Shown: piece after piece, positions 33,262-64,000 of the stretch
Layout of the letters: every line of letters starts with the position of its first letter
Numbering within the stretch: position 1 is the first letter of the stretch
Assembly: GCA_946414025.1 (NCBI GenBank)
Contig: CAMKMX010000009.1
Coordinates: 21,049-85,048, forward strand
Direction: 5' to 3'
Origin: an uncultured Fibrobacter sp.
Lineage (GTDB): Bacteria; Fibrobacterota; Fibrobacteria; Fibrobacterales; Fibrobacteraceae
DNA length: 64,000 bases
Notes under the pieces: model-generated
Told to the model about the DNA's origin: nothing
Database searches by the model: none
What the model saw: the letters and a program-made list of their open reading frames with translations, nothing else
Position numbers and translations under genes: made by a program

Positions 33262-34353
33262 CTACTGTTCCAGTTCCAGCAAGTCCGCCTTTAGGGACTG
33301 ATCCGCCGGATAGTATTTCTGGGCCAAAAGCAATAGGCGGCGGGCCTCGTCGGTACGCTTTTTCGCCATGGCATCGTAGGCCATATTCTTGAGACCATAA
33401 ATAGCTTCGGCGTTTCCTTTTTTGGCCGCCAGTTCGTAGGCATATTCAGCACGGTCCAGGAACTTGGTGTCGTAGGCCAGGTTCCCGAGGAAAATGGCGG
33501 CATCGGAAAAGTCCGGCTTGATTTGCAAGATATTGTTCAGGATGTCCATGGCCACAAAGGGCTTGTTGTCTTCGGCCAAGACATCGGCCAGCTTGTACAT
33601 GACATTCACGTCGTCAGGGCGCACGCCCAAGGCCTCGCGGTAATGACCAGCGCTCTGTTCATACTGCTTGTTCATGCGGAAAACATCCCCGAGATAGACC
33701 AGAAAATCCACTTCTTCGGGGTGTGCCGTGTAGCCCTTGCGGACAATTTCTACAGCACGGTCGTAATCGTCCATGGCGATGTTCGCCTCCGAAAGCTGAT
33801 AGACGATGCTCAGGTCGTCAGGGTCCAGCTGGTAGGCCTTTTCTACCGAACGGAGCGCCCCCACCTTGTCGCCCACCTTGCTGTAGGCCTCCCCCAGGTA
33901 GAGCCATCCCGAAATGTTGTTCGGCTCCAGCTTCAGCGCCCTGTGGTAAGCGGCGATACATTCGGGATATTGCTTCAGGCGGAAATAGACGCTGGCCATA
34001 TTGAACAGCGCAGGGGAAAACGCCCCGTCCGAAAAATCCACCGCCTTGCGGTAGGCGGCCGCCGCCTCGGGGTATTTTTCCATCTGGTAATAACTATTGG
34101 CGATATTGAAACTTGTGGCCGTGGGATCGGCACCACGTTCTTCGGCCTTGTGGTATAGGATGATGGCCTGGTTGAATTTTCCGTTACGGTAAAGGGCGTT
34201 GGCACGCTCCAGCAGGTCGTAAGAAGACTGCGCAGCAAAAACAGGAATGGCAAAAAATATGATGATATAAGACAGAAGCGAGAGCCGCGACAAACCATGT
34301 TTGCCGTTACTTATACCCCAAAGCTCGCGAACGCGAGCGACCTCATAGCTCAT
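33262..34353 (-). CDS. TPR repeat protein at the end of the Ton system locus
   Basis: Repeated TPR units (A.A.YRKAVDFSDGAFSPALFNMASVYFRLKQYPECIAAYHRALKLEPN); N-terminus MSYEVARVREL is encoded by a palindromic repeat, start uncertain. Confidence 0.8.
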   Translation of the reverse strand: MSYEVARVRELWGISNGKHGLSRLSLLSYIIIFFAIPVFAAQSSYDLLERANALYRNGKFNQAIILYHKAEERGADPTATSFNIANSYYQMEKYPEAAAAYRKAVDFSDGAFSPALFNMASVYFRLKQYPECIAAYHRALKLEPNNISGWLYLGEAYSKVGDKVGALRSVEKAYQLDPDDLSIVYQLSEANIAMDDYDRAVEIVRKGYTAHPEEVDFLVYLGDVFRMNKQYEQSAGHYREALGVRPDDVNVMYKLADVLAEDNKPFVAMDILNNILQIKPDFSDAAIFLGNLAYDTKFLDRAEYAYELAAKKGNAEAIYGLKNMAYDAMAKKRTDEARRLLLLAQKYYPADQSLKADLLELEQ

Positions 34354-34357
34354 ACCA

Positions 34358-35005
34358 CTAATCCCTAAACTTCACCTCGAAAGGTTGTTCCATTCCACAA
34401 AACGCCACCGCCTTGCCGTCTTTTTCTGCAGGGGAAAAGGTCATGCGGCCAAGGGCTTCGCGACCGGCGGCAGCAAGCCCAGAACCTGCAGGAGATTCCT
34501 CGATAACGCGGATATCATAGGCGCGCCCGCCCACGTCTACACAGAAACTCAGGCGAAGCGTAGCGTCAATTTCCCGGTCCCGAATTTGCGGCGGCACCTG
34601 GAAATTGGGCATGGACTTGCTTTCGGGCTTTTTGTCCACATCACCCTTTTCGCTGGACATGGCGCCCCCGCGGAAATCCGCCACCAGTTCTTCGTTAATG
34701 GCCGCCCCTGCCGTCCCCGAAGCCACCCCCAAGTTCATGGCAAGACGGGGGCCCGCCTTGGGCGTGCGGGAGGTGGTCTTTTGTCGCTCCGGCTTGCGGG
34801 AAGGCTTTTTCTTTTCCACCTTCTTTTCCATTTCTTCCACCTTCTTTACGGAGACTTCCGTCTTGGTGTACTTTTTTTCGTGGAAGATTTTTCCGGTCAG
34901 AAACATATTGGCAAGAGTCACGGAAAATACCAGCAGCAGGCTACAAAGCACCGCCGCCAGGAGAAGCAGAGACCGCTTGATTATTTTCCTTAGAATCTTA
35001 CGCAT
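34358..35005 (-). CDS. TonB-like energy transducer
   Basis: N-terminal TM, Lys/Pro-rich linker, C-terminal EIDATLRLSFCVDVGGRAYDIRVIEESPAGSGLAAAGREALGRMTFSPA. Confidence 0.75.
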   Translation of the reverse strand: MRKILRKIIKRSLLLLAAVLCSLLLVFSVTLANMFLTGKIFHEKKYTKTEVSVKKVEEMEKKVEKKKPSRKPERQKTTSRTPKAGPRLAMNLGVASGTAGAAINEELVADFRGGAMSSEKGDVDKKPESKSMPNFQVPPQIRDREIDATLRLSFCVDVGGRAYDIRVIEESPAGSGLAAAGREALGRMTFSPAEKDGKAVAFCGMEQPFEVKFRD

Positions 35006-35144: not shown

Positions 35145-35549
35145 CTATTCCGCTTGGGCCGCGATGGACACCTTCTTGACTCCGGCCAAGTTGCACATGT
35201 CTATGACCTGCACCAGCACGCCTGTTTCTGCCCCCTTGTCGGCAATGACCACGGCCTCCCTGTCGGGATTTTTCGAGAGGGACTGTTTCAAGATATCCTG
35301 CAGGCTTGCCAAGTCCACCTGGCGCTCGTTCATGTGGATGGTTCCTTCGCGGGTAATGGCAATAAGCAGGTTTTCCTTTTCCAGCTGGCTTGCCGTCTGG
35401 GCCTGTGGCTTGGTCACATCCACGCCAGTTTCGCGGGTAAAGGACGACGTAACCACAAAAAAGATAAGCAAGATGAACACAATGTCCATCAGGGGGCCCA
35501 TCTCGATGCCCATATCCTTTTTCTTTCTGCTCGGCAGGTTGAATTCCAT
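35145..35549 (-). CDS. ExbD/TolR family biopolymer transporter
   Basis: KKKDMGIEMGPLMDIVFILLIFFVVTSSF. Confidence 0.92.
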   Translation of the reverse strand: MEFNLPSRKKKDMGIEMGPLMDIVFILLIFFVVTSSFTRETGVDVTKPQAQTASQLEKENLLIAITREGTIHMNERQVDLASLQDILKQSLSKNPDREAVVIADKGAETGVLVQVIDMCNLAGVKKVSIAAQAE

Positions 35550-35551
35550 AA

Positions 35552-36186
35552 TTACCCTACAAAATAATTGTCAATAATCGTGGCCCCGAGTTTCAAGTCC
35601 TGGGTCAAAATTTCCACACGTTCATCCAGGCGCTGCTTCAGCAAGGTCAAGGGGAACGCCACCAGGAGCCCGCTCTGGGTAGAAATAAGGGCTTCCGAAA
35701 TTCCGTCGGCCATAAGGACCGGGTTCTGGTTTCCGTAAAGGGTAATTACCTCGAAGGTGGAGACCATGCCCGTCACCGTTCCCAAAAGGCCAAGCAGCGG
35801 GGCCGCCGCCGCCATTACCGCCACGATGTGGCTTCCCTTTTCCATGTGGCGTAGCGTCCCCAGCATGCGCACCTGCATAATGTCGCGGAATCCTTCGGGA
35901 TTCTTTTGCGCATGTTCAATGGCGTAACGGAGTTCGCTGGCCAAAATTCCACGGCGTTTTTCCAGCCGGGACATGGCCTTTTCGACACCGCCTTCATTCA
36001 GGTCGTGACGCAGGTTCTTGATGACCTTCTGGACATCTTGCCTGAAAAAGTCAGAGCCGATACGGAACCAGCTGTAAAACAGGTAGTAGAATCCGACAGT
36101 TCCCACCAGCAGAATGGGGAGCATCACCACGCCACCGGCCTGGTACGTGCTTTTCAGGGATTCAACGAATACATAGAAGGAATTGC

Positions 36187-36190
<4 letters not shown>
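35552..36190 (-). CDS. MotA/TolQ/ExbB proton channel protein
   Basis: MEKGSHIVAVMAAAAPLLGLLGTVTGMVSTFEVI, LISTQSGLLVAFPL. Confidence 0.9.
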
Positions 36191-38588
<2,398 letters not shown>

Positions 38589-38716
38589 ATTCTTCTGCGT
38601 TAAGTTGCACCAAAATTACATATTTAAAACACCTGAACCTGTAAAAAATGTCACCGTCACACTGGAAATAATCAACTTTTGCCCCATATTTCTATATTGT
38701 GCACAAAGGTAAGTCC

Positions 38717-42784: not shown

Positions 42785-44389
42785 CTACCAGTTTTTGCAA
42801 ACCGCAGGCTTGTCCTGCTTACAAATCAACTCCACCTCCCTCGCCAAGACGGGGGATTTTTGTTCTTCTATGTAGTAGCGACTCACCAGGGCGGATTTAC
42901 ACTGGGGGAACCTCCCGTAATCCCAGTCCCTGTCGGCGCACCACTCCCAGAAATACTCCAGGCAGTCGTTCTTTTCGGTGCTTTCCAGGCAATCCTTCTT
43001 GAGGGCCGAACAGTCCGCAATCTTGTTGCTTTCGAAGTTGCCTGCCACGCAGTAACGCTTGAGGCCGTCGGCGTAGGCGTTTGACTTGTCCTTGGCATCA
43101 ATTGTATCGGGCAGGAACACGGACCACTTGGTAGTATCCAGCATCATGGCGGCCTTGACCAGGGATGGGTAGCATGTCTCGTTCACCAGGTAGTCGCCTT
43201 CCGCAAAATAGGCTCCAGCCTTCGAATTGGCCGTAACCAAATCTGTGCCGCCGGCTGTCGAATCCCCATAGGGCATTCCAGAGCAATAGACATCCTGGTA
43301 CAGCCTGCAGGCCCTGTTTTTCCAGCCCTCCTTGTCGTCGGGGTCGTCGCCAGCCTGCTTGCAGGAGGCGCTCCTGATGTATTCAAATTCCAGGTAGTCA
43401 TCGCCCTTGATTTTTACGGGGATGTCCACCCGTTTCATGCCCGAAAAAACGCCCATGCCGTTTTCGATGTTGGACACGGGAACCACCCGGGGGTCTTCCA
43501 GAGCTTCCAAAACATAGTCCTCGTAATCCATGTAGGCGCTGTCGGTGGCATAAAAATGGAGCACTGATTCCCCTATGGGGAAAGAGATGTTCGACACGAA
43601 AATGGTGTCAGCGCTATTGTAGCCGCCTATGGTCCAATTGTCGTTGTACCCCAGCCTCTTGGTGTTTTCAAGGCTGTTGCTCAGGGAGAAAACAAAGCCG
43701 GCGGAATCTTCGTCTGCGAAGCTAGAAAGCATCTTGTGGATGGTGGTGTTCATGGATTCGCCACCGTTCACGTTGTCGTAGGTCAGCGTCACCAGCACGC
43801 CGCCCAAATCCTTGTCGTGTTCCGTGTAGAACTTGAAGATATCCATGTCCCTGGGGAAAGTCAAGAAATTCGTTTCAAATCCCTTGCCGTTCAAGGCCAC
43901 ATCCTTGGTCTTGCCGTCCTGCTGGGGAATTTTCACCTTCTTGACAGAGAATTTCTTGGGGATAGTAGCAACGGCCTTATAGGTGGTAGAAACCTTTTCG
44001 CCGGAACTGTCCCACTTGAAGAACGCCTCCATCTTGTAGGAATTGCCAGCCTTGCCCACAAGGCCCGACGACGAATCCGCCACGAAACAGTTGGGCTTGC
44101 CCGTTTCGGGGACAAGCTGCACGGGAGCGGATTTTGCCGTGGTGTCAAAGACCGTCACCTTGGCGCTGTCATAGAACGCGAAGTTTTCTGCCGAGGATTC
44201 TTCCAGTTCATACATCTTGGAAAAACAGATTCGCGGGGACTCGCCCTCCATAATGTATCCGTAGGTGTAAACGCCTGCATAGATTTCCGTGGTGTGGGGG
44301 TAGTATTCCCAGGGCCCGTGAAAATCCCCGCAGGCAGCGAGAAGACCCACCAAAGAAACAACAACCAGATGGCGGATCTGGTCCGCCAT
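42785..44389 (-). CDS. DUF4249-like lipoprotein next to a TonB receptor
   Basis: Lipobox LLAACGD; position directly after the receptor; start Met lies in a GTCAT hairpin. Confidence 0.65.
   Translation of the reverse strand: MADQIRHLVVVSLVGLLAACGDFHGPWEYYPHTTEIYAGVYTYGYIMEGESPRICFSKMYELEESSAENFAFYDSAKVTVFDTTAKSAPVQLVPETGKPNCFVADSSSGLVGKAGNSYKMEAFFKWDSSGEKVSTTYKAVATIPKKFSVKKVKIPQQDGKTKDVALNGKGFETNFLTFPRDMDIFKFYTEHDKDLGGVLVTLTYDNVNGGESMNTTIHKMLSSFADEDSAGFVFSLSNSLENTKRLGYNDNWTIGGYNSADTIFVSNISFPIGESVLHFYATDSAYMDYEDYVLEALEDPRVVPVSNIENGMGVFSGMKRVDIPVKIKGDDYLEFEYIRSASCKQAGDDPDDKEGWKNRACRLYQDVYCSGMPYGDSTAGGTDLVTANSKAGAYFAEGDYLVNETCYPSLVKAAMMLDTTKWSVFLPDTIDAKDKSNAYADGLKRYCVAGNFESNKIADCSALKKDCLESTEKNDCLEYFWEWCADRDWDYGRFPQCKSALVSRYYIEEQKSPVLAREVELICKQDKPAVCKNW
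42827..42861. repeat. Right copy of 35-bp direct repeat, inside the 3' end of the DUF4249-like CDS
   Basis: Identical to 41405-41439; encodes KSPVLAREVEL. Confidence 0.9.
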
Positions 44390-44392
44390 GAC
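44368..44392. repeat. GTCAT hairpin containing a start codon
   Basis: GATGGCGGATCTGGTCCGCCATGAC; CAT at 44387-44389 is the ATG of the DUF4249-like lipoprotein. Confidence 0.8.
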
Positions 44393-44406
44393 GGTTCTAC
44401 ATTCTA

Positions 44407-44434
44407 TCTCTCGTCTCTCGCCTCTCGTCTCTCG
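44407..44434. repeat. Heptad array (TCTCTCG type)
   Basis: TCTCTCG TCTCTCG CCTCTCG TCTCTCG, 1 bp from the TonB receptor stop. Confidence 0.93.
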
Positions 44435-44435
44435 T

Positions 44436-47006
44436 CTAGAAATAATACTCATAACTCAACATAATCGGTAAAAAGGGGAACTGGTATATTTCGTTGTATT
44501 CAGGCGGGTTCTCGCGGGTGTCGTAGAAGGAGTAGAACATATTGTCGTGGTTGGTCAGGTTGATGATGGTCCAGCTGAAATTCCACTTGTTTTCGCGACC
44601 GATATCGATGACCTTCACATCTACGCGGAAATAGTCGGTTTGCCTCTCCGCATTGCGGCTACCCTGCACCACCACGATGTTGTCGGAATAATTCCTGTTT
44701 CCCAAATCTTCCCGATAGAAATACCCCTTGTATCCCGTAATGGGCATGCCCGCCGAATACTTAAGGGCAATAGAGGAGCGGAAATAGCGGCCCTTGACCG
44801 GGTGCTTTTTCAGGGCATCCTCGTCGCCCTTCCAGTTGATGCCCGCATCCAGCTTCAGGGCGTAGGGCTGATGCCAGCTGGGGTAATAGGCTTTGGTTCC
44901 GTCGTCGGAGCGGATAACGCTTATGCTCTGGCTCCAGTTGATTCCGCCAAACCACCAGCCCCTATCCTTGCGAAGCGAAAGTTCGTAACCGAAAGAATAG
45001 CCGGACGCCGTGCCGAAATAATCCGCCATGACCATGCTTTGGGAATTGGCAGAGGCCTCGCTGTCGTCTTCGGTGGAGTCCGAATCCATGGCAAATGTCT
45101 TGAGGTCACTCTGGGTCTTGTAATAGAGCCCGACGGTGGCGTCGTAGCCGTCGAACAAATTCCTGTGGCTGTATTCCGTGGCAAACAGCCACGACGAAGC
45201 GGGTTTCATCTGCTTGCCGTAATTGTCCGTGGTGGCCGGGTAGTAAAACTCATTCAAGGTTTCCTGATCGCTAAACATGATGGAATTCAAGTATTGCAAA
45301 TAATAGCCGCCATAAAATTCAACCGTCTTGGTTTCGTCCAGGTTCACAGTCAAGGACGCCCTCGGTTCTACACCAAAATGCTTAGCCGCCGTCTGGTAGT
45401 TGAATCGCGCACCGTATTGCAGCAAATAATCGGGAGTAACCTTCCAGGCATCTTGCAGGTAGCCCACATGGTGGAAAGGCCTCTGCTTGTCTTCCAGCTT
45501 GGTGTCGGAAACCCGCTCTCCCAGGCGGTCGTATGTATATTCCAGTTCGTAGCCGCCGGTTATCACGTGGTCCTTGACGCCGCGGTAGTTGAGCCACTGC
45601 TTGCCCGAAAAGGTCATCAGGTTCATGCTGATGGACATCAGGTCCGATATTTCCATGTTCTGGTAAAAACGGCTGAAAGCGTAGGTGGAATTGTAATCCC
45701 AGTTGCCGTTAAAACGGTGGTATATCCCGAGAGGAATCGCCACGTTTCCCCAGTCCACGTAAAGGGGGTCAAAGGACAGTTCGTCCTTGCCCACATAGAA
45801 GCTGAACTTGAATCGGGTATCGTCCGTCAAATTGTACAGGAACGTTCCCTGCAGGTCCGTAAACTCGTAGTCCAGATCAAGGTCCAAAAGCCCGATAGCG
45901 TTGCACAGGTCCAGCACATAGCCGATGTAGGTGGTGCGCCCCGCCACCACCCAACGGGCGGGGCCCTGATGGCCTTCGGTATGGAGCTGGGCGGCGAAAG
46001 TGCTTATCTTGATACTGCTCTTGCTGAACCATTCATCGACGGTGTCTTGCCCACCCGCGCGGCCGTCCATCTTGAGTACCGAACTCAGGCGGTTGCCGTA
46101 TTGGGCCGGAAAACCACTCTTGTAGAACTTCACGTCGTCGATACCTTCTACGAGAAATGTGCTGAACAACCCGAAGAAATGGACCGGAGAATAGACCACG
46201 GCGTTATCGAACAGAAACAGGTTCTGGTCCGCGGCGCCGCCTCGAACGTAAATCTTGGAACTGAAATCAGAACTGGCGACCACTCCCGGGAGGGCCTGGA
46301 TACTCTTGATGACGTCGGCCTCGGCGAGGCTCGGCATGCGCTTGATGGACTTGGCCGACACCACGGACTCGCCGGGGCTGCGCTTGGGGCGGCGCCGCAG
46401 CTGCACCACCACCTTCTTGAGTTCGGTGACCTTGCCATTGTTGCCTGCGGCAAGGAGGGAATCTACGTTCATGTCGCTAGCGGAGGCTTTGTGGCCTGGA
46501 TCCTTCGCGACTACGTCGCTTTGGGCCCTATCGCCTCCATGAGGCTCCAGGGCGACATCTTTTGTGCTTGTCATTCTGGAGCGACCAACGGGAGCGATAG
46601 AATCCAATTCATTCTGCACAAACCCGTCGCCCAGGGCCTGGGAAAAGGCGCGTTCAGCGCCGACATACTTGAGTTCGTAACATTTTTCCTTCTCGGCGCC
46701 GGCCGTGTCGGAATTGGTGACGCAGATATTCCAGAGGGTGTCTTCGGGCAGCACCACGCTAAAAGGCGTGCCCACGGTGGTCTGGAGCGCCTCGCCGGAT
46801 TCAAGAATTTCAACGTTGAGCTTTTCGCCCACGGCAAAGGAACTGTCCTGCACCACGCCGTTGAAGACGATGCCCACGACCTTTGCAGAGTCTGCTGTTG
46901 CAGAGCCGAGAACGGGCTGCGCGGAACCTGCCGTCCCTTGCGCAAAAGCAAGAGAGGCCGCCAGGGAGGCAAACAAGCTGGTCCAGATTTTCAACCGGAA
47001 TCTCAC
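44436..47006 (-). CDS. TonB-dependent receptor
   Basis: Plug: RMPSLAEADVIKSIQALPGVVASSDFSSKIYVRGGAADQNLFLFDNAVVYSPVHFFGLFS; long beta-rich C-terminus ending YEYYF. Confidence 0.88.
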   Translation of the reverse strand: MRFRLKIWTSLFASLAASLAFAQGTAGSAQPVLGSATADSAKVVGIVFNGVVQDSSFAVGEKLNVEILESGEALQTTVGTPFSVVLPEDTLWNICVTNSDTAGAEKEKCYELKYVGAERAFSQALGDGFVQNELDSIAPVGRSRMTSTKDVALEPHGGDRAQSDVVAKDPGHKASASDMNVDSLLAAGNNGKVTELKKVVVQLRRRPKRSPGESVVSAKSIKRMPSLAEADVIKSIQALPGVVASSDFSSKIYVRGGAADQNLFLFDNAVVYSPVHFFGLFSTFLVEGIDDVKFYKSGFPAQYGNRLSSVLKMDGRAGGQDTVDEWFSKSSIKISTFAAQLHTEGHQGPARWVVAGRTTYIGYVLDLCNAIGLLDLDLDYEFTDLQGTFLYNLTDDTRFKFSFYVGKDELSFDPLYVDWGNVAIPLGIYHRFNGNWDYNSTYAFSRFYQNMEISDLMSISMNLMTFSGKQWLNYRGVKDHVITGGYELEYTYDRLGERVSDTKLEDKQRPFHHVGYLQDAWKVTPDYLLQYGARFNYQTAAKHFGVEPRASLTVNLDETKTVEFYGGYYLQYLNSIMFSDQETLNEFYYPATTDNYGKQMKPASSWLFATEYSHRNLFDGYDATVGLYYKTQSDLKTFAMDSDSTEDDSEASANSQSMVMADYFGTASGYSFGYELSLRKDRGWWFGGINWSQSISVIRSDDGTKAYYPSWHQPYALKLDAGINWKGDEDALKKHPVKGRYFRSSIALKYSAGMPITGYKGYFYREDLGNRNYSDNIVVVQGSRNAERQTDYFRVDVKVIDIGRENKWNFSWTIINLTNHDNMFYSFYDTRENPPEYNEIYQFPFLPIMLSYEYYF

Positions 47007-47097
47007 AATTCAACAAAAATAGCAAATAAGGGAACTTATTTGCCATTGAAACACCCGATGGGGTTGAAAGTGTTACTTTTGCTGATTTTTCTACGGC

Positions 47098-49296: not shown

Positions 49297-49297
49297 T

Positions 49298-53160: not shown

Positions 53161-55125
53161 TTACCAACAACTTTCAAATTGCATGTATTCCCCCACAGGG
53201 ATTGTGATATACAGAGGAAATTCAACCTTAACACTTCCACTACAAGGTTCTCTATCGCTATATTTATTAACTGTTCCGGTTACTTGCTGACCATCAATCC
53301 AATCAAGGCAATTTTCGGAACTTCCACTTAGTGCTACTGTTGCAATTGTCGTAGAAGAGTTCGTTCCAGTCCACCTTGGGCATTCAGGTATATAATAGCC
53401 ACCAGGTCCTAATCGTTTCGCACTCGGGAATTCAATTTCATCATAGGGATTATCACTGTCAACTACATAAACACTGGGGCAGGTAACTTCCTTGGCATTG
53501 CCGTCAGCATTGGTCACGGTGACACTTGGAGTATATTCGCCCTTCTTGGTGTAAGATGCGGTCACGCTGCTCTTGGTCCCCGATACAGAACCCGACCAGA
53601 TATAACTCAAGGGTTCTGCGCCCTCGCTAGAGCAACCGGTAACGTTCCATGTGTATTCAACAGGATTGTCGCTTGCCAAGTCATTAGTTTCTGTCGTGAG
53701 TTCCCCGTCACAAGTACATCCGGTGATTTCCTTCTTCGCCAACGAAGAAGAACTAGTGGTTGTTGTGCTGGTAGCAGCCCCCTTCAGGCACCTGACGGAA
53801 ATACTGGGAGCAGTTAAAGAGTTCGCAGCATCGTCCTGTTCAAAGATGTCACTATCGTAAGAAATCTTAAAGGCATATCCTCCACTCGCGAAGAATCTCG
53901 CCTCGTCATCGCTGTAGCATTTCCCACTCCAGCAACTACCAGCCGGGAGTGCCGAAAATCCAAAAAGGTCTTCCCCAGTGGCAACGGCAACCCTTGTTTC
54001 GATTTCGGTCCCTGCTTCGTACCAGCCCGTGGTGGATTTCAGGCTTTTGCCTACCCCCTCCGTGCCGTTATTCGCATCTACATAATTGTACAGCACGGTC
54101 CATTCCGCAATTGCCGGAACATGCCATCCGGCTGGACAAAGGGATGTGGCACTTATGTTAGAAGGGTAAAGCCTGCCATATTTTTTACAGTAGGCACTGT
54201 TTTTCAAAGGGCATACGGAACCCGTAGCCTCATAGTTCAGGTTCTCCGCCATCCAGGTCTGGGTACCGATGACAACGGTCTTGTATGTCTGACCATCGCG
54301 GGAGTCGGTGAGAGTCCCTTCTTCTGGTTCGGGGACCTTGACAGAAGACGAAGACAGATCCTCGATCGGGGTCGAGGATGACGTGGGGGTATCCGGGGTC
54401 GAGGATGACGTGGGGGGATCTGGGGTCGAGGATGACGATTTTGGTGAATCATCGTCAGGCTCACTTCGGCCTTGATCAGCGGCCTTAGCTTCTTTCCATT
54501 CCCCGTCGATGCATTTCAGGGCTGTGCCCTCGTCGGCGATGTAGGCCTTTTCACCCTCCCGTTTGGCGGTGCAGTTGCTGAGGCTGTCCTCGGTAGCGTA
54601 GTAGGTGCCCACGGCTTTCCAACGGGTGCCGTCGCACAGATAGGCCTCACCCTCTATCAGGGCCGTTTCACCCTCGCGCTTGACAACACAGTTGGGTAAA
54701 TCGTCTTCGGTTTCGTATTCTACGACCCCCGATTCGCCAGGGGCGTCTTCCTTAATCCAGCGCTTGCCATCGCAGGTGTAGGCGGCACTTTCGCTTTTGA
54801 CAAACAACGAAAGGCCTTCCTTCTTGCCAATACAGGCGGGCAACTCATCTTCGGTCTTGACTGTATCGAGGACATCGTGGTCGAATTCCCAGGCACCCTT
54901 CTGGCAGCGGTAGGCCTTGCGTTCGTCCTGAACTTCGGCCAGGTCGCCCTCCCTGCTCTTGCTGCAATTGGGCAGGTCGTCGAAGGTTTCTGCCTGAACG
55001 GAGACGAGTTCCCCGTCGTTTGCATTGGTTCCGCTGCTGTCGGAACCGCAGGCCACGAGAAATACAGCAGCCGAGGCTGCAAACAAAGTAACGATTTCTC
55101 TTTTCATTTTCACCTCTCTCCACAT
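53161..55125 (-). CDS. Lipoprotein: Cys-repeat modules + Ser/Thr/Pro linker + FISUMP domain + Ig/PKD-like tail
   Basis: Modules; PTSSSTPDTPTSSSTPIEDLSSSS linker; FISUMP block; YTWNVTGCSSEGAEPLSYIWSGSVSGTKSSVTASYTKKGEYTPSVTVTNADG. Confidence 0.85.
   Translation of the reverse strand: MWREVKMKREIVTLFAASAAVFLVACGSDSSGTNANDGELVSVQAETFDDLPNCSKSREGDLAEVQDERKAYRCQKGAWEFDHDVLDTVKTEDELPACIGKKEGLSLFVKSESAAYTCDGKRWIKEDAPGESGVVEYETEDDLPNCVVKREGETALIEGEAYLCDGTRWKAVGTYYATEDSLSNCTAKREGEKAYIADEGTALKCIDGEWKEAKAADQGRSEPDDDSPKSSSSTPDPPTSSSTPDTPTSSSTPIEDLSSSSVKVPEPEEGTLTDSRDGQTYKTVVIGTQTWMAENLNYEATGSVCPLKNSAYCKKYGRLYPSNISATSLCPAGWHVPAIAEWTVLYNYVDANNGTEGVGKSLKSTTGWYEAGTEIETRVAVATGEDLFGFSALPAGSCWSGKCYSDDEARFFASGGYAFKISYDSDIFEQDDAANSLTAPSISVRCLKGAATSTTTTSSSSLAKKEITGCTCDGELTTETNDLASDNPVEYTWNVTGCSSEGAEPLSYIWSGSVSGTKSSVTASYTKKGEYTPSVTVTNADGNAKEVTCPSVYVVDSDNPYDEIEFPSAKRLGPGGYYIPECPRWTGTNSSTTIATVALSGSSENCLDWIDGQQVTGTVNKYSDREPCSGSVKVEFPLYITIPVGEYMQFESCW
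54357..54436. repeat. In-CDS GTCAT hairpin and 27-bp tandem derivatives
   Basis: GATCCTCGATCGGGGTCGAGGATGAC (54357-54382); GGTCGAGGATGAC starts at 54370, 54397, 54424. Confidence 0.88.
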
Positions 55126-55501: not shown

Positions 55502-57865
55502 CTATTCTTCGTCTTTGATGCAGCGGACGGAGTACATACCTTTTTTTTGACCCCTTTCCCCACACTTCCATTCTCTGTAGTCTGGTAAAAAAGCAGCCCC
55601 GTAAGACGCGCCACCCAAGATAAAACGACTCCCATTAGAAACCCATAAATGCGCCCAGGATCCGAGATCTTCATAACGCTCTTTACCATAATTAAAGCTT
55701 CCAGCAGGGAGTACGGAAAAACCATATGTATTTGGTTCAGCCTTATGCAGACAGTCTTCTGGAATCTCGTTCCAGCACCACTCACCAGTCATCAACTCTT
55801 CCATCGTATCGGTTAATTCTAAGGCAAGCAATTCATTCCATTCATTACAATCAGGTACATGCCAACCCGAAGGGCATGACTCCAGCAAAACCTCATATGC
55901 ATACAACCTTCCGTAAACTGAGCAATTTTTTTCATCATTGTCATAGCAGTAACTTCCAGATTCAGTTTCATAGTTTAGGTTTTCAGCAAGCCACTCGTGC
56001 TTTTTTATCCCTATAGTTTTGTATTTTTTCCCGTCACGGGGATCTACTACTTCGCCATAATTCAACTTTTCTGTAGTAAATTTCCATACAGATGCGTGAC
56101 ATTTGTAAAAGGAATAATACCCCTTGGGAATCCAATACGTTCCCTCGGTATAATTTGTACAGCCCAAGCCTACGCTTACTTCATTTTCTGTTGCAGCCCT
56201 AAACACACCATCATCGCACACATACTTATTTGTTTTTATAAAGGTTCCATCAAAAATCACACCATCGTTTGTACATTTCTTTTGATAGGTATCATACTCC
56301 AATATGCTAGCCAGTCTCCATGCTTTTTTTCTTACTTCGTAGATATAATAATCTTTTTCATTCACTTGACCCTGACGTATTTCACCTTCAAATTCTCCAT
56401 GGCCCCATGTTGCAGTATCTTTTTCTATGTCTGTAGCAGTACGCCAAGTTTGCGAAACACACTTGTACCAGTTTTTATCCGAGCCCTGGCCAACAGTATC
56501 TTGCCTCAAGACTGTGCATCCGCGAAGCCCTAGCGAGCAGTCATTTGCCTCACCGGCTCGCCAGACTTTATCCTCATAGACATAGCAGTTGGTCTTAACC
56601 ACATCACCGAATTTCACATCGTCGTCTTTTCCAGCTTTCCATTTGTAAGTATCTTTCTCGATATCCGAAGCCAGACGCCACACACTGTCCTTGCAAATGA
56701 AATAATTCGAATCAACTTTTCCAACAGAATCTGCAATCGCTGCCACACAACCGCCAAGTTTCGCTTCAACATTGTCCGCCGCTCGCCATACTGTTTTGTC
56801 GAACACATAGATGCTATCCGTCACATTGCCTTTCTTTATTGTGCCATCGGTCGATTTTTCCCAACCGAACGTATCTTTCTCGATATCCGAGGCCAGGCGC
56901 CACAAGTTATCCTTGCAAATGAAATGAACGCCGTTCAACTTGCTCAACGCATTGGTGTTTGCTTTCACAACACCTTCCCGCTCCTTGTCGCAATCACCGA
57001 GGCCGTAGTTTTCCCACCAGAACTTGTCCATGGATTTTTCAAAATCGGGTATGATGTCAGAAATTTTCCAGCCCTTTATGTTGCTACGGATGGCAGAATA
57101 GTAGGTGGACAGGCTAACTGCACTTGCCCAGTCCGCCACGGCGGTAGCGGTTACCGAGTCGTTCCACACGCCATCCTTTTCGATATCGTAGGCAAAATTC
57201 GCCAGCCTTTCGGAGAAATCTCCTTCTGCAAGATCCGCCTGCATCAAGGAACTTATGGCCAGAAGGGCTGCGTTCCCCTCTCCCTTCTTGAATATGGAAA
57301 GTCCTTCGAAGTCGCCAATCAATTCGTTTTCAATATGAAACGCCTTCAGGATTTCCTGTTCCGCCTGCTGCTTGGCATCCTTTACGGGTTTGCCCTCGTT
57401 TACCAAGAACAGTGTGCGCTCGAACGCCAAATGAGTCAAAAGATTGATGTTGGCCGTTTCCTTGTCAGACAAATCCACCAGGGCATTAAGGGTTATAGGG
57501 GCCGTCGATTGTTTTCCGGTATTTTCATTGCGGTAATATCCCGAAACCTCCATAAATGCAAATTGGCATTCCAAATTCAAATGGGTAAACCGAAAATCCC
57601 CACGGTCGCTGGCGATTTTTCCAGGAATGGAGCGTCCCGTATGTCCGAGGGTTTCAAATTCCAATTCGTAAATGTGGACTGCAGAACCCACCGTGAAGGG
57701 ACCCTTTTCAGAAACACCGGCAACGGTCTTGTCTTCGATGGCAATCTGGGTCTCTTCGGTAGCACCGCCGGCCTGTTTGTCGTCTCCTGAACAGGCGCAC
57801 GCAAACAACGCGACCAAGGCAAGCAATGCAAGCCAAAAAAAGCTATGTCCAAATGTCTTTTTCAT
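55502..57865 (-). CDS. Large FISUMP lipoprotein with repeated FICKDxxWRLASDIEKDT modules
   Basis: Lipobox LFACACS; several C..W repeats; C-terminal WLAENLNYETESGSYCY..CPSGWHVPDCNEWNELL..YSVRCIKDEE; start could also be 57889. Confidence 0.83.
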   Translation of the reverse strand: MKKTFGHSFFWLALLALVALFACACSGDDKQAGGATEETQIAIEDKTVAGVSEKGPFTVGSAVHIYELEFETLGHTGRSIPGKIASDRGDFRFTHLNLECQFAFMEVSGYYRNENTGKQSTAPITLNALVDLSDKETANINLLTHLAFERTLFLVNEGKPVKDAKQQAEQEILKAFHIENELIGDFEGLSIFKKGEGNAALLAISSLMQADLAEGDFSERLANFAYDIEKDGVWNDSVTATAVADWASAVSLSTYYSAIRSNIKGWKISDIIPDFEKSMDKFWWENYGLGDCDKEREGVVKANTNALSKLNGVHFICKDNLWRLASDIEKDTFGWEKSTDGTIKKGNVTDSIYVFDKTVWRAADNVEAKLGGCVAAIADSVGKVDSNYFICKDSVWRLASDIEKDTYKWKAGKDDDVKFGDVVKTNCYVYEDKVWRAGEANDCSLGLRGCTVLRQDTVGQGSDKNWYKCVSQTWRTATDIEKDTATWGHGEFEGEIRQGQVNEKDYYIYEVRKKAWRLASILEYDTYQKKCTNDGVIFDGTFIKTNKYVCDDGVFRAATENEVSVGLGCTNYTEGTYWIPKGYYSFYKCHASVWKFTTEKLNYGEVVDPRDGKKYKTIGIKKHEWLAENLNYETESGSYCYDNDEKNCSVYGRLYAYEVLLESCPSGWHVPDCNEWNELLALELTDTMEELMTGEWCWNEIPEDCLHKAEPNTYGFSVLPAGSFNYGKERYEDLGSWAHLWVSNGSRFILGGASYGAAFLPDYREWKCGERGQKKGMYSVRCIKDEE

Positions 57866-57885
57866 CTGTGCAAATTTTCCTTGTT

Positions 57886-58719
57886 TCATTTTTTACCGGA
57901 GGCAAGTTTCCATGTCAAGGGGAAAAGCTGAAGGTTCAATCGGAACACCTGTTCCATATCGTCGTCTTCGGTGGCGATGGCGATAACGCGCTTACGGAAA
58001 TCCGCCAGTTCCTTGACAATTTTCTGAAATGTTTTTTCAGTAAGGCCCAGCGTGAGCCCTGAAACAGAGCGGCCGGACAGGGGCACGTTCTTTATAGCCT
58101 CTAGAGCGAGCGCACCCATCTGCAAGTGCATCTGCTGAACCGCCAGCGGGACAAAATCCATTTTCCCCGTCGATACGGTCTTATTCGTTTGTATAAAGGT
58201 ATCCTTGCCGACTTTTTTCAAGAGACCCATAGATATCAGGTACTTGATGGTGGCCGACACCTGTCGCGCCGTGATTTTCGGCATGCACTGGACCGCGATT
58301 TGCTTTGCCTTTTTGCCCGCCATGTGGGGCACCAGTTCCCTGAGTACCGGGTTCTGCCACGATTCAAAATACCCCATGGACTTTTGCCCCAGGACATTCA
58401 CCTGGTGCGCCTTGGAAAGGGCCTGCATCTCGTCGAAATATTTCTGCCTTATGGATTCCCGTTTTGCCTGATTAAATGCCACTAGCGCCTTGAAATAGGC
58501 CAGTTCAAAGCCCTCCAGCCCCATGGCATGTGCTACACGAGCTACCCCTGCTCCGCTCAACCCCGACTTGCCTTCGCAAACCAGCTTCAGGTAAACGGGA
58601 GAACGGAATCCGGCCAGTTTTGAAAATTCACGCCACGTCATTACGGCATGGGCCTTTTTCTCCTGAAACCAATGGTCCATGAACTTTCGATAATCCTGGA
58701 ATGCGATGACGGAATCCAT
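57886..58719 (-). CDS. TIGR02147-like transcriptional regulator (Fibrobacter-type)
   Basis: DYRKFMDHWFQEKKAHAVMTWREFSKLAGFRSPVYLKLVCEGKSGLSGAGVARVAHAMGLEGFELAYFKALVAFNQAK. Confidence 0.8.
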   Translation of the reverse strand: MDSVIAFQDYRKFMDHWFQEKKAHAVMTWREFSKLAGFRSPVYLKLVCEGKSGLSGAGVARVAHAMGLEGFELAYFKALVAFNQAKRESIRQKYFDEMQALSKAHQVNVLGQKSMGYFESWQNPVLRELVPHMAGKKAKQIAVQCMPKITARQVSATIKYLISMGLLKKVGKDTFIQTNKTVSTGKMDFVPLAVQQMHLQMGALALEAIKNVPLSGRSVSGLTLGLTEKTFQKIVKELADFRKRVIAIATEDDDMEQVFRLNLQLFPLTWKLASGKK

Positions 58720-59015: not shown

Positions 59016-59044
59016 TTGACAATTCGTATCCAATTGGATACATT
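59016..59044 (+). promoter_or_regulatory. Candidate promoter with palindromic operator for the toxin-antitoxin pair
   Basis: TTGACA (59016-59021), 17-bp spacer containing most of perfect 16-bp palindrome GTATCCAATTGGATAC (59026-59041), TACATT (59039-59044). Confidence 0.7.
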
Positions 59045-59055
59045 TGGAGAAAACA

Positions 59056-59358
59056 ATGATCGTAAACCAAACCCCTGTATTTCAGAAATGGATGCAAAAA
59101 TTACGAGATTTTCGGGCTAAAGCACACATACTTTCCCGATTGACACAAATTGAAAAAGGAAATCTTGGCGACTTTAAATCTGTAGGGAGCGGCGTATTGG
59201 AGATGCGCATCGATTATGGACCAGGCTACAGACTCTATTTTGCAAAAGATGGCGAGATTATTGTAATTATTCTGATTGGCGGCGAAAAATCCACACAAGA
59301 TCAAGACATCGTAAAGGCAAAAAACATTTGGCAAGGAATGAAAAATGAAAAAAAGTGA
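59056..59358 (+). CDS. RelE/HigB-type addiction module toxin
   Basis: FQKWMQKLRDFRAKAHILSRLTQIEKGNLGDFKSVGSGVLEMRIDYGPGYRLYFAKDGEIIVIILIGGEKSTQ. Confidence 0.9.
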   Translation: MIVNQTPVFQKWMQKLRDFRAKAHILSRLTQIEKGNLGDFKSVGSGVLEMRIDYGPGYRLYFAKDGEIIVIILIGGEKSTQDQDIVKAKNIWQGMKNEKK

Positions 59359-59701
59359 AGTCACACGTTTAGACATCGCAGAGTATCTTGACAGCAAAGA
59401 AATCGTTGCCGAATACCTCGACCTGATTTGCCAAGAAAACGACCCCGCATTGTTGCTGCATGCTATCGGACATGTCGCACGTAGCAAGGGCATGGCGAAA
59501 ATTGCGGAATCGTCAGGACTCGGACGAGAAAGCCTCTACAAGGCTTTAGCCGAAAATGCCCATCCGCGCTTTGAAACCGTATTCAAGGTTCTTGCCGCGC
59601 TGGGCATTCAAATGCATCTGGTTCCCAGAGTAAAATTCAAGCGCAGGCGGACACCAGCGCCAATTGCCGTGGCCGAGAAGAAATCTATGTATAAGGTCTA
59701 A
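59345..59701 (+). CDS. HigA-type addiction module antidote
   Basis: LLHAIGHVARSKGMAKIAESSGLGRESLYKALAENAHPRFETVFKVLAALGIQMHLVPR; overlaps the toxin ORF. Confidence 0.9.
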   Translation: MKKSEVTRLDIAEYLDSKEIVAEYLDLICQENDPALLLHAIGHVARSKGMAKIAESSGLGRESLYKALAENAHPRFETVFKVLAALGIQMHLVPRVKFKRRRTPAPIAVAEKKSMYKV

Positions 59702-59745: not shown

Positions 59746-62130
59746 CTAGAACCTTCCGACGGTAATGCCAGCGTAGAATCCGGGCCAGAAGCGGAATTTA
59801 TCCCCTTCGTGGCCAAAGTCGTCGTGGTATTCCGCCAGCGGCTTAAGCCAAAGCTTATCTCCAGTGATTTCTTGAGCAAAGTTGAGCGAACCGCCTACCG
59901 AAAGCCCGAAGAAGGGGAATACTTGAGTCGTGTAGCCCAGGCGCAGACGATGATGGAAATTGACATCGTCGCCGTCGCGGTATTCAAATCCCGAAAAATG
60001 CGAATCAAGACCATGCCTGTTTTGTGCAGCCAGGAACATGTATTCCAAATCAAAGTGACTGCCGTATTTACCGAACTGCGTTCCAAGGCCGATACCGGTT
60101 TCATTAACGTCGCTGAATTCCTTGAACCCCGTTCCCTTTTCAATCAGGCGGGCCCCTTCAAGAGCGGTGTAGAGGTAGGCCGTACCCATGTGGAGGGAAA
60201 CGCCCAGGGCGCCCATTTCGTTGAGTGAGCCCGTGACGCTCCACACGCCGTTACCCACGATATTGATGAGGCCCACGGGAGTCTTTTCGCAGTGGCCGCA
60301 GATGTTCAAGATACCCACCTGGCGGCCGTCGGCACGACCCGCGATGTTCAAGACGCTCACCTGGGCGGTATTGAGCTTGCCCGCCACATTCATAGCGGCT
60401 GCCACCTGCACGTCGGATTCCTTGGCCGCGTTCAGGGCGGCAGTCACCTGCACACCGGATTTCTTGGCAGCATTCAGAGCAGCGGACACCTGCACGTCAG
60501 ACTCTCTCGCGATGTTCGCCGCGGCGGTAACCTGGGCATGGGTTTCCTTGGCCACATTCAGGGCGGCAGAAATCTGGGCCTTGGTTTCACGGGCGTAGTT
60601 GATAGCGGGGGCAACCTGCACGCCGTTCAGGGAATCACGGGCCACGTTCATGGTGGCCGAGACCTGCACTCCCGAAGAATTCTCCTTGGCCACGTTGATC
60701 ACGGGAGACACCTGGATTCCATCAAAGGAACCCGCATAGTTCATGACGCTCGAAACCTGCGCCCCTTCGTAATGCTCCTTCGCGCCGTTGAACACCGCCG
60801 AAAGTTGCAGGCCATGCATTTCCTTGCGGGCGATGTTTGCAAAGATGCTGATTTGCGAACCCAGCATATAGCTGTCGGTACGGGTCACGAACAGGCCCAT
60901 CTGCAGGCCCTTGCGGGCTTCGCGGTCCTTGTCCACCAAGTTGAAGGTCACCCGGAATTTTCCGTTGTGGTCCAGGGAATCCAAGGAACAGGCGGTAGTA
61001 TCGCCGGAGGCGCAGTCCCCGCGGCGGGCGATTTCGCCCCGGAGGGTGGTCTTTTCGGCAACGATGGCGCTGAACTGTTTTTGCGTCAACTGGGCGCGGT
61101 AATTGTCCTGCAGGGTGACGCTCGCCTCCTTATATTCGGCGGGCCTTTCCAGACGCACGCTGTACTTACCGGCGGCAAGCCCCAGGTTGATGGGGCGACC
61201 CGCCTTCTTGTAAAGTTCCGCCACCAGCTCGCCCCGTTCGTCACGGATGAACAGACGGCCCTCCACATCGTCGCCGATGTCCAGGCCCGCGTTCATGCTG
61301 CGCAAATCCGTCATCACCACGTCGCCGGTTCCGGCCAGGTTCATATCCCGGCTGGGGTGCTGGGCGCCACCCATGGTGGCTTCCGTTTTCTGGAGTGTTT
61401 CATTGAAAGCAAACTGGTAAGCTTCCGAAAGGGTCACCTTGCCGTCGCCGCTGATATCGCCGGCCCCGCGTAGGCCGCTCACCAGGGAATGGGTAAAGAA
61501 GGATCCCTTCAGCCTGTCGCTTTCCTGGCTGGATTCATCTTGCGTGCTGCTGGTAATAAAGGCATAGCCCTTCATGTCGGAACTCTTGTCCACCATAAAG
61601 GCGGGCACAGCCACGCCACCCTTCGCGCGGGTAATGGCTCCCGAACCGCAGGCATCAATCACCGCAATCTTCACGTCGGCATGGAGGGAATCGATTTTTG
61701 TGCGGAGCGCCTTCCAGGCGAAGGTCTCCTTGCCCAAGCGCAGGCCCTTTTCATCGGCGTGACCGCTGTAATAGACCAGCACCTCGTCGCGACCGCCTGC
61801 CGACTTGTTCTTTGCAATCTTCTTGTCCAATTCGTCAATCTTCTGCTGGAATGCGGCGACACTGGGTTCCTTCACCTCCACGATGTTCCCCGCCTGCACA
61901 CCGCCCATTTCCTTCAGCACGTTCACGAAGGAGCGGGCATCGCTTGCGGCATAGCGGAGGGTGGGGCGGCCTTCGCCGCCGTAGTTGGCACTTACGGCCA
62001 GCACGTAGCGGTTGATCTGAATCTCCTGGGCGGCAGAAACGTTGGATACCGCAGCCAACAGGAGCAAGGCGACAACCGAAATAATCTGGAGCGTCAAAGA
62101 AGCGTCCATCTTTTTAATCAAATTCATCAT
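59746..62130 (-). CDS. Exported caspase-like (C14) protein fused to surface-type repeats and a beta-barrel-like C-terminus
   Basis: Signal peptide; VLVYYSGHADEKGL and IAVIDACGSGAI (His/Cys dyad); GDISGDGKVTLSEAYQFAF; about 14-aa VQVxAALNxAKxxx repeats; C-term beta-rich ending FYAGITVGRF. Confidence 0.8.
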   Translation of the reverse strand: MMNLIKKMDASLTLQIISVVALLLLAAVSNVSAAQEIQINRYVLAVSANYGGEGRPTLRYAASDARSFVNVLKEMGGVQAGNIVEVKEPSVAAFQQKIDELDKKIAKNKSAGGRDEVLVYYSGHADEKGLRLGKETFAWKALRTKIDSLHADVKIAVIDACGSGAITRAKGGVAVPAFMVDKSSDMKGYAFITSSTQDESSQESDRLKGSFFTHSLVSGLRGAGDISGDGKVTLSEAYQFAFNETLQKTEATMGGAQHPSRDMNLAGTGDVVMTDLRSMNAGLDIGDDVEGRLFIRDERGELVAELYKKAGRPINLGLAAGKYSVRLERPAEYKEASVTLQDNYRAQLTQKQFSAIVAEKTTLRGEIARRGDCASGDTTACSLDSLDHNGKFRVTFNLVDKDREARKGLQMGLFVTRTDSYMLGSQISIFANIARKEMHGLQLSAVFNGAKEHYEGAQVSSVMNYAGSFDGIQVSPVINVAKENSSGVQVSATMNVARDSLNGVQVAPAINYARETKAQISAALNVAKETHAQVTAAANIARESDVQVSAALNAAKKSGVQVTAALNAAKESDVQVAAAMNVAGKLNTAQVSVLNIAGRADGRQVGILNICGHCEKTPVGLINIVGNGVWSVTGSLNEMGALGVSLHMGTAYLYTALEGARLIEKGTGFKEFSDVNETGIGLGTQFGKYGSHFDLEYMFLAAQNRHGLDSHFSGFEYRDGDDVNFHHRLRLGYTTQVFPFFGLSVGGSLNFAQEITGDKLWLKPLAEYHDDFGHEGDKFRFWPGFYAGITVGRF

Positions 62131-62131
62131 C

Positions 62132-62962
62132 TTACTTGCCCTCCGTCTTGCGGAGCGTGAGGCTCACCGTCTTCACACCGTCCTGTTTCAGCGAGGCGTC
62201 GATATTGCCCGCATCCAGCCCGAATTCACTTTTCGAAGTCAAGAAAAAGAACTTCTCGAATTTCGGGGCGTTGTCCAGCTTGTAGGCAAAGGGAAGCGTA
62301 GTCATCTTCCCGGGTTCAAGTTCTACGGCGCGGTTCTCATGCCCCATGTGCATGGTGATAGTCCCGTTCCCGTCCATGCTGAAAAGCAGTCCGTAGCACT
62401 TCTCGGCCACAGCGTAACGCAACTGGATTTCATCGCCTTCGCGGGCCTCCCCCAGATTTTCCATCTGGACGGCGCTATCGCCTGTCTTTTTCCAGACTTC
62501 CATACGGGCGGAGAGTCCCTTGATACGCAGGCCATCGTCACCGGCACCGGAAGCATCGACCATGGCCACTTCCATAACCTGTGCACCGTTTACACTGTTC
62601 GCCATGTTCGCATTGTTCGCAAGAACCGTGCCGCCCTGTTCCGAAAGGGAACGCTGGCTGAACAGTGCCACCGTCACCACCGCAAGCACCAGGGCCGCGG
62701 CGGCGGCAAGTTTCACCAACTTGAAATTCACACGCATCGTGTTGCCGACATCTGCATTGGAGCGTCCTGGCATCGTGGCAATCTTTTCCGAAAGTTTTTC
62801 GAAAGGAAGCCTCTTGAGGATTGCCGCATTGTCTTCACGCAGCATCTTCACGCGATTGGCGAAAATCTCGTCAACCTCTTCCATCTTGCGGATTTCCCGC
62901 ATTTCTTCGGCAGGCAAGTCGCCCGTCAAGTATTTTTCCAGTTTCCAGTCGGGAATCATCAC
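62132..62962 (-). CDS. Membrane anti-sigma-like protein with DUF4384-like periplasmic domain
   Basis: Cytoplasmic helical N-term, one TM (KLVKLAAAAALVLAVVTVALF), periplasmic GDEIQLRYAVAEKCYGLLFSMDGNGTITMH; overlaps the sigma factor stop (ATGA). Confidence 0.65.
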   Translation of the reverse strand: MMIPDWKLEKYLTGDLPAEEMREIRKMEEVDEIFANRVKMLREDNAAILKRLPFEKLSEKIATMPGRSNADVGNTMRVNFKLVKLAAAAALVLAVVTVALFSQRSLSEQGGTVLANNANMANSVNGAQVMEVAMVDASGAGDDGLRIKGLSARMEVWKKTGDSAVQMENLGEAREGDEIQLRYAVAEKCYGLLFSMDGNGTITMHMGHENRAVELEPGKMTTLPFAYKLDNAPKFEKFFFLTSKSEFGLDAGNIDASLKQDGVKTVSLTLRKTEGK

Positions 62963-63462
62963 TTCACCTCCAGGTTTTTAACTCTTGCCTGCAAGGTGCG
63001 TAAACGCTTGCGCACCCCGCTTACCGAAAGCCCCACCATCTCGGCGGTTTCTTCCAGCGTCATACCATCTACATAGTGCAACACCGCAATGGTCCGGGTA
63101 GATTCCTGCTCCCGCGAAAAAATTTTCGCCAATATGCCGCGAGCCTCGTTGCCTTCCTGCTCGTCGTCTGCGCAGGCGATATTCAGCAGCAGTTCGCTGG
63201 AATCCACGTCCAGCCCCCTGCGCTTCTTGTCGCGGATGCGGTTCAGGCAGAGCCTGGTGGCCGTATTCCACAAAAGGCTGCTGGGACTGTCCAGGTTCAG
63301 ACGGTCCATGCCGGCATAAATCCGCAAAAACACGTCCTGCATCAGGTCCGAAGCCTCCGCCTCGTCCTTGAGCAGGGCCATGCAGCGACGGTAAACCATC
63401 GGGGCGTAGGCCTCGTACAGTCTAGAAAACGCCATGCGATCTGCGGAATTTATCCTTTCCAT
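62959..63462 (-). CDS. ECF RNA polymerase sigma factor
   Basis: FSRLYEAYAPMVYRRCMALLKDEAEASDLMQDVFLRIY (sigma2), VLHYVDGMTLEETAEMVGLSVSGVRKRLRTLQARVK (sigma4). Confidence 0.9.
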   Translation of the reverse strand: MERINSADRMAFSRLYEAYAPMVYRRCMALLKDEAEASDLMQDVFLRIYAGMDRLNLDSPSSLLWNTATRLCLNRIRDKKRRGLDVDSSELLLNIACADDEQEGNEARGILAKIFSREQESTRTIAVLHYVDGMTLEETAEMVGLSVSGVRKRLRTLQARVKNLEVK

Positions 63463-63518
63463 GCCTGTGTAACACTTGTGGAGGTTAAAAGTGTCACCGG
63501 AAATGTAAAAAAAGTGGA

Positions 63519-63650: not shown

Positions 63651-64000
63651 CTACTTACTAAAATCAAAAAAAGCTGCGGGATCCGTCCCGAAGATTTCAC
63701 CGAGTTTTATCGCCATCTTGCGGGATACCGCCCTTCGTCCGTTTTCCATGGCACAGAGGTTCTGAACCTGAATCCCGAGTTTTTCGGCAAGGGTGACCTG
63801 CGACCAGTTGCGCAAATCTCGGTTCGCAACAATCATTTCGCCGGGGGTGGAATCCAAATTCTTGAACCAGTCAGACTCTTCGAAGGGGATCGAATCCTCG
63901 TTTTTGCAGACCGCCACATTTTCGGACTTGTAGGTATCCTTCAAGAACCTGACAAGCGGAGCAGGGATGTGCTTCGCACGAATTTCAATACGGGGCTTTT
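63651..64000 (-). CDS. XRE/HigA-like helix-turn-helix protein, 5' end outside the window
   Basis: MIVANRDLRNWSQVTLAEKLGIQVQNLCAMENGRRAVSRKMAIKLGEIFG; frame stays open to the window edge (KPRIEIRAKHIPAPLVRFLKDTYKSEN). Confidence 0.8.
   Translation of the reverse strand, partial: KPRIEIRAKHIPAPLVRFLKDTYKSENVAVCKNEDSIPFEESDWFKNLDSTPGEMIVANRDLRNWSQVTLAEKLGIQVQNLCAMENGRRAVSRKMAIKLGEIFGTDPAAFFDFSK

Follow-up and report, generated by a model that had tools for sequence, protein, structure and literature searches.

The 64,000-nucleotide (nt) stretch of DNA analysed here (the window; uncultured Fibrobacter sp., contig CAMKMX010000009.1, positions 21,049 to 85,048) encodes on its minus strand a three-gene operon for an extracytoplasmic function (ECF) sigma factor, a putative anti-sigma factor with one transmembrane (TM) segment, and an exported caspase. 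The locus probably forms the regulatory centre of a TonB-coupled outer-membrane module under ECF control, of which the caspase, predicted to be anchored in the outer membrane and to face the periplasm, would be the regulated Arg/Lys-type protease. This reading joins features taken directly from the sequence (the operon, a shared promoter-like motif, the gene sets, and the catalytic and S1-type residues) to a predicted barrel and topology, and to a sigma promoter, a signal and a substrate that we infer. The initial annotation of the locus had proposed a signalling or cell-death system; the shared motif connects the caspase with a TonB-dependent receptor, with TonB/ExbBD and with flavin mononucleotide (FMN) reductases, and the module appears to point to envelope signalling or transport rather than to cell death.

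Most bacterial caspase homologues have no established role and are usually discussed in terms of programmed cell death. The family described here is large, has intact catalytic residues, and is tied to an ECF sigma factor and a TonB-dependent receptor by a motif conserved over several phyla. A specific non-death role can be proposed for it: promoter, regulon and location are predicted, candidate substrates can be named, and there are culturable hosts such as Fibrobacter succinogenes and Myxococcus.

Operon organization and conservation

Coordinates in the text are positions in the window, and loci elsewhere carry labels such as L230 or G063. The sigma factor (62959..63462, minus strand; 167 amino acids, aa) matches Sigma70_r2 (3.1e-14) and r4_2 (6.5e-7), both above the Pfam cut-offs, and TIGR02937 (1.2e-23); it comprises sigma2 and sigma4 domains and little else, which is what defines an ECF sigma factor. 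The open reading frame (ORF) of the anti-sigma factor (62132..62962, minus strand; 276 aa) begins with GTG and overlaps the sigma ORF by 4 nt, and the caspase ORF (59746..62130, minus strand; 794 aa) follows after a 1-nt gap; the three overlapping or abutting genes are present as initially annotated.

The middle protein has a helical cytoplasmic N-terminus (IPDWKLE.YL.G.LP..EM), a TM segment at residues ~82-100 and a DUF4384-like periplasmic domain. The one-TM architecture of the initial annotation is confirmed; the DUF4384 match is weak for the window protein alone (19.9 versus a cut-off of 27), and 18 of 34 aligned members have a match. The N-terminal signature (IPDWKLERYLLGELP..EM), partly common to several phyla in the alignment, is in line with an anti-sigma domain, and two traits of class I anti-sigma factors, a single TM segment and a gene adjoining an ECF gene, are both present. 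The NCBIfam anti-sigma model NF052375 matched weakly (20.4 versus a cut-off of 100; E 4.1e-4), and no Pfam anti-sigma domain was found. Nearly every anti-sigma factor carries an (R)xKG motif between the TM segment and DUF4384.

The operon is near-universal in Fibrobacter, spread through the Fibrobacterota, and present in other phyla. Of 121 Fibrobacterota genomes, 104 have the caspase and 88 the anti-sigma factor; within Fibrobacter each occurs in 67 of 73 genomes, the six without the caspase being also the six without the anti-sigma factor. Of 79 named loci, 68 retain the gene order sigma - anti-sigma - caspase, which is far beyond chance, and the rest are two contig edges and nine Fibrimonadaceae loci with a relocated caspase; in the neighbourhoods built first, the order was kept in nearly all, and two were cut by contig ends. 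The same order recurs in metagenome-assembled genomes (MAGs) labelled as Myxococcota, Spirochaetes, Proteobacteria and Deltaproteobacteria, mostly together with the repeats and barrel, and a caspase relative is present in 162 of 195 Myxococcota genomes (dozens full length). The neighbourhood search thus found the ECF/anti-sigma/caspase operon conserved in relatives, and the fusion and gene order are not unusual, as had been supposed: the full-length form is common in Fibrobacterota and Myxococcota, and sigma-metacaspase operons, Fibrobacter among their hosts, were reported in 2012 (PMC3501461).

Plasmid homologues were restricted to distant matches, mainly to the repeat/barrel part (Persicobacter, Hymenobacter, Bacillus pumilus). 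At two Myxococcota loci with the motif (L363, L372), an exported and possibly barrel-forming protein of ~203 aa follows sigma and anti-sigma in the caspase's place.

The exported caspase and its predicted topology

The caspase carries a hydrophobic signal peptide, as first noted, and a Peptidase_C14 domain (residues 43-228; 61447..62004, minus strand) that scores 46.7 bits against a Pfam cut-off of 21.4; no second Peptidase_C14 protein was found in its own genome (82% complete). The His (YYSGHAD) and Cys (DACGSG) described as intact are H124 and C161; all 61 aligned sequences retain both, as well as D159 and D64. Going by known metacaspase structures, we take D64 and D159, from their position, to be the S1 acids; with all four residues invariant, an active Arg/Lys-type protease, i.e. 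one with a basic P1 preference, is expected. Foldseek matched the domain to caspase-3/7, legumain and the yeast metacaspase Yca1 (prob 1.00, E ~3e-3 or worse); sequence searches of the PDB gave nothing useful for the caspase or the anti-sigma factor.

An AlphaFold model of the full-length protein, built on a 61-row alignment, comprises the caspase domain, an immunoglobulin (Ig)-like domain, a long beta-repeat stretch and a C-terminal barrel. The surface-type repeats initially described as about 14 aa long are genuine: ~13 units of 14-16 aa (residues ~420-620; 60271..60873, minus strand) are all-beta in the model and, by profiles, of LA_2272/VC2662 type, with a weak match for the window protein and matches in 38/61 and 50/61 aligned sequences. 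They may fold as a solenoid or as an extension of the barrel. The likeness to LA_2272/VC2662 surface-repeat proteins lies in the matching repeat units; the difference is that the repeats of the window protein join a caspase to a barrel.

The beta-rich C-terminus with an aromatic end is predicted to be an eight-stranded outer-membrane barrel (residues ~629-794; 59749..60246, minus strand), with strands at 629, 641, 654, 672, 691, 723, 741 and 777 and a final F (last letters ...GITVGRF). The last 410 residues, modelled on their own, reached a mean predicted local distance difference test (pLDDT) of 86 and a predicted template-modelling score (pTM) of 0.65, and gave the same barrel matches; pLDDT in the barrel is mostly ~79-96, outer loops excepted. 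Foldseek matched the barrel to OprF (TMt 0.62-0.63), NspA, OmpX, Ail and OmpA (prob 1.00; OmpA/OprF-type E 2.4e-3), and the leading matches for the repeat-plus-barrel part were barrels, so that a soluble cytoplasmic C-terminus was not borne out.

In the model, the strands are joined alternately by short turns (688-691, 738-741) and long loops (663-672, 704-723, 756-777), and the C-terminal residue is aromatic. This alternation corresponds to the pattern of OmpA, which would place both barrel ends in the periplasm and, with them, the catalytic domain, tethered by an OmpA/OprF-like barrel. Of the two locations offered initially, periplasmic or surface, the predicted OmpA-type barrel favours the former; a surface or autotransporter topology was rejected, as eight strands are predicted (OprF/OmpX-like) versus the 12 of an autotransporter translocator.

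A shared promoter-like motif

The motif GTGACA-N16-GTGTT lies ahead of the sigma operon (63471..63497, minus strand). In the form GTRACA-N16-GTGTT it was found upstream of the sigma gene from Fibrobacter to Spirochaete, Myxococcota and Proteobacteria MAGs, with a spacing fixed at 16 nt and a variable spacer; it precedes sigma in 74 of 100 loci tested, where the last block was counted as GTGTT or GGGTT. The own genome contains five exact sites, three of them in the window, ahead of the sigma, receptor and DUF3450-TonB operons. A somewhat stricter form of the motif gave 264 sites in 73 Fibrobacter genomes versus 23 for a reversed-pattern control, and in 13 Myxococcota genomes a related motif gave 89 sites versus three controls. 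In 54 of 62 Fibrobacterota sigma genes, the distance from the motif's first base to the first in-frame start codon is exactly 35 nt, and this distance recurs in sigma and relocated caspase genes (window 63462-63497; L125, L126, L131); its constancy suggests that the sigma and relocated caspase mRNAs are leaderless or near-leaderless.

We infer that the motif is the promoter of this ECF sigma factor. Some sites are partly palindromic and match both strands, which would suit another regulator common to these operons; such a regulator is quite improbable, since two fixed blocks with a constant 16-nt spacing and a constant 35 nt to the start are as expected for a sigma promoter, and the presence of the motif follows this sigma across phyla, divergent sigmas being without it.

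A proposed TonB-linked regulon

Two further operons of the window (all genes on the minus strand) have the motif. The site at 47050..47076 precedes a TonB-dependent receptor (44436..47006; Plug domain, no STN match) and a DUF4249-like lipoprotein (42785..44452; weak, E 0.0032). The site at 38628..38654 precedes genes for a DUF3450 protein (37752..38588; 2.5e-22), a MotA/TolQ/ExbB protein of TtpC type (36187..37755; 522 aa, 1.6e-31), ExbB (35552..36190; 4.5e-27), ExbD (35145..35549; 2e-30), TonB (34358..35005; TonB_C 5.6e-6) and, as the last gene of the operon, a tetratricopeptide repeat (TPR) protein (33262..34353). Among Fibrobacter orthologues, the exact sense-strand motif was found at 28 of 30 receptor-lipoprotein operons and at 30 of 30 DUF3450-ExbB-ExbB-ExbD-TonB-TPR operons. 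The two operons are ~13 and ~21 kb from the sigma operon in the window, and at 12 of 20 Fibrobacter loci the receptor gene comes immediately after the caspase. Further motif-bearing genes, in some species, are NADPH-dependent FMN reductases.

In Fibrimonadaceae (termite) the caspase is no longer beside sigma and anti-sigma, and the motif stands directly ahead of it in six of nine loci, in three of these six at 35 nt before the caspase start; the sigma-anti-sigma pair is found elsewhere in the genome, with a motif of its own in three of five relocated cases found. In Myxococcota, ExbB-ExbD-TonB-receptor operons begin right after the motif (L365, L380, L381), and the receptors of these loci carry CarboxypepD_reg domains. 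At L284 an ExbB-ExbD-TonB-receptor operon is followed by a lipoprotein and, at the cluster end, by the caspase; at L230, L280 and L282, ExbB-ExbD-TonB-receptor-lipoprotein clusters are divergent from sigma-anti-sigma-caspase. Similarly, a receptor with its own motif adjoins the operon in the Spirochaete L231, and a receptor-lipoprotein pair lies downstream of the operon at L149.

Fibrobacter genomes without detectable anti-sigma and caspase (L285, from G063, 99% complete; L286) have kept the motif ahead of the receptor operon. A highly conserved motif variant (GTGACATTTTCTAGATTCTGGGGTGTTTAA) stands ahead of an FMN reductase in L319, ahead of an ATPase-like gene in L320, and probably likewise at G000:C44:9807-9833 (L155); it is as if another gene had taken the place of the FMN reductase at L320, and probably at L155, while the promoter stayed. 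In the window, Fibrobacter-type lipoproteins (47098-49374, 53161-55125 and 55502-57889, minus strand) separate operons that adjoin one another in other Fibrobacter genomes; the last matches Fib_succ_major, and the first appears, by eye, to have a GH5-like cellulase domain at its end.

Mechanism and alternative readings

For the module as a whole we propose that the one-TM anti-sigma factor holds the ECF sigma factor until an envelope signal frees it, and that the freed sigma would recognise GTRACA-N16-GTGTT and transcribe its own operon including the caspase (autoregulation), as well as the TonB-dependent receptor with its lipoprotein, the dedicated ExbB/ExbD/TonB energiser and, in some species, FMN reductases. 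The caspase, held in the outer membrane by its barrel, would cut in the periplasm as the module's regulated protease, and its target is most likely a component of the module (anti-sigma, receptor or lipoprotein) rather than a general cell protein.

Several results weigh against this TonB-coupled module. The full-length model has a pTM of 0.42 and active-site loops with pLDDT <50, and Foldseek E-values exceed 1e-3 despite prob 1.00. Among the loci tested, short-form systems with divergent sigmas are without the motif. The motif was found at 0 of 11 orthologous receptor/TonB operons of Fibrobacterota outside Fibrobacter; capture of the receptor operon by this sigma would therefore be lineage-specific, with the captured TonB operon differing by lineage. 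A TonB cluster adjoins in only three of 20 Myxococcota loci. Furthermore, the RxKG sequence is present in the L363 anti-sigma factor, which has no adjacent caspase.

Within the module the caspase may act downstream or upstream of sigma. As an effector or processing protease, induced by sigma and without a trigger role, it would cleave or remove the receptor, the lipoprotein or a cargo at the outer membrane; this is plausible, if short of an even chance, as its promoter motif also stands ahead of receptor and TonB genes, the L284 caspase ends an ExbB-ExbD-TonB-receptor-lipoprotein cluster, and TonB-dependent protein secretion is documented for Oar/PopC (PMC6434023), although PopC is a different protease and itself the secreted cargo. 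Somewhat doubtful is a role as site-1 protease, in which the caspase would cut the anti-sigma factor after a basic residue in the juxtamembrane/DUF4384 region and so set off regulated intramembrane proteolysis with positive feedback. The caspase and the periplasmic domain of the anti-sigma factor are predicted to share a compartment, their genes are nearly always co-encoded and are co-lost in six Fibrobacter genomes, the S1 acids D64/D159 of basic-P1 type are invariant, and (R)xKG occupies the right region in nearly all anti-sigma factors. However, the Arg is not universal (IQIKG, IQYKG, TTIKG), the caspase is unlinked in Fibrimonadaceae, and a caspase that is itself a sigma target suits an effector as well as a trigger. 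As the Arg varies and L363 has the motif with no caspase next to the gene, the case for RxKG as a specific caspase site is weakened; it is a candidate cleavage site but probably structural.

An extension of the site-1 role, which we consider unlikely, is that the activity of the TonB-dependent receptor licenses the periplasmic caspase to cut the DUF4384-like anti-sigma factor, the caspase being the signal-transducing protease of a non-FecR form of cell-surface signalling; if true, a caspase fold would be used in transmembrane sigma signalling common to Fibrobacterota, Myxococcota, Spirochaetota and others. Highly improbable is an effector of cell death triggered by envelope damage or phage. 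The caspase fold with its intact dyad would suit it, and a conflict role has been proposed for other caspase systems, some of which include ECF genes (PMC7159879, PMC8195603), but here the caspase is a nearly fixed chromosomal core gene of Fibrobacter and not part of a patchy island, its regulon consists of receptor, TonB and FMN reductases, and its predicted location is periplasmic. The PADLOC caspase model matched weakly (14.8 bits, E 0.003) and there was no match for the partner proteins; assignment to a listed defence system was rejected.

Comparison with known systems

Sigma-70 genes have been described in metacaspase operons of Myxococcus, Anaeromyxobacter, Haliangium, Sorangium, Ralstonia and Fibrobacter (Asplund-Samuelsson et al. 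2012, PMC3501461). These are operons of the same kind, with the same genus named; the passages on these operons mention sigma factors alone, with no promoter motif, barrel or TonB link, and neither DUF4384 nor 'periplasm' occurs in the main text of that paper. Operons of sigma and metacaspase were already known, and the regulon (shared motif, TonB link) appears to be the new part; among the open-licence papers searched, none was found to describe a link of caspase, TonB, ECF sigma and anti-sigma across several phyla.

In FecIRA/Fox systems proteolysis of the anti-sigma factor is a known switch (PMC11637429), and an ECF sigma, an inner-membrane anti-sigma and a TonB-dependent receptor stand under one sigma, as they would here judging from the motif. 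The window module differs in that its receptor is without STN and its anti-sigma factor is not of FecR type, and an outer-membrane caspase is foreign to FecIRA/Fox. No STN domain was found in the window receptor (only Plug) or in the other receptors (TonB_C/CarboxypepD_reg), and FecR matched 0 of 34 anti-sigma members; by analogy, the module would work like cell-surface signalling but is not a member of that class.

Oar/PopC of Myxococcus xanthus (PMC6434023) likewise pairs a TonB-dependent outer-membrane protein and a Ton system with a protease, but PopC is secreted, belongs to another protease family and is regulated in another way; neither 'caspase' nor 'ECF' occurs in the main text of that paper. 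Among NCBIfam caspase models the nearest (NF047832) is that of the EACC1/EACC2 systems (PMC7159879, PMC8195603), which pair caspases with a one-TM protein and have ECF genes near EACC2/TRADD-N; they differ as variable conflict systems of multicellular bacteria, and TonB is absent from the main text of the EACC1 paper. Membership in the EACC1 caspase family was rejected (NF047832, 57.9 versus a cut-off of 140).

Neighbouring genes

Directly 3' of the caspase, on the opposite strand, lies a small toxin-antitoxin pair (59044-59701, plus strand) with a Gp49/ParE-like toxin and an HI1420-type antidote. Upstream of sigma, near the window end, an HTH_3 (Xre-like) gene is found at 63651-63944 (minus strand).

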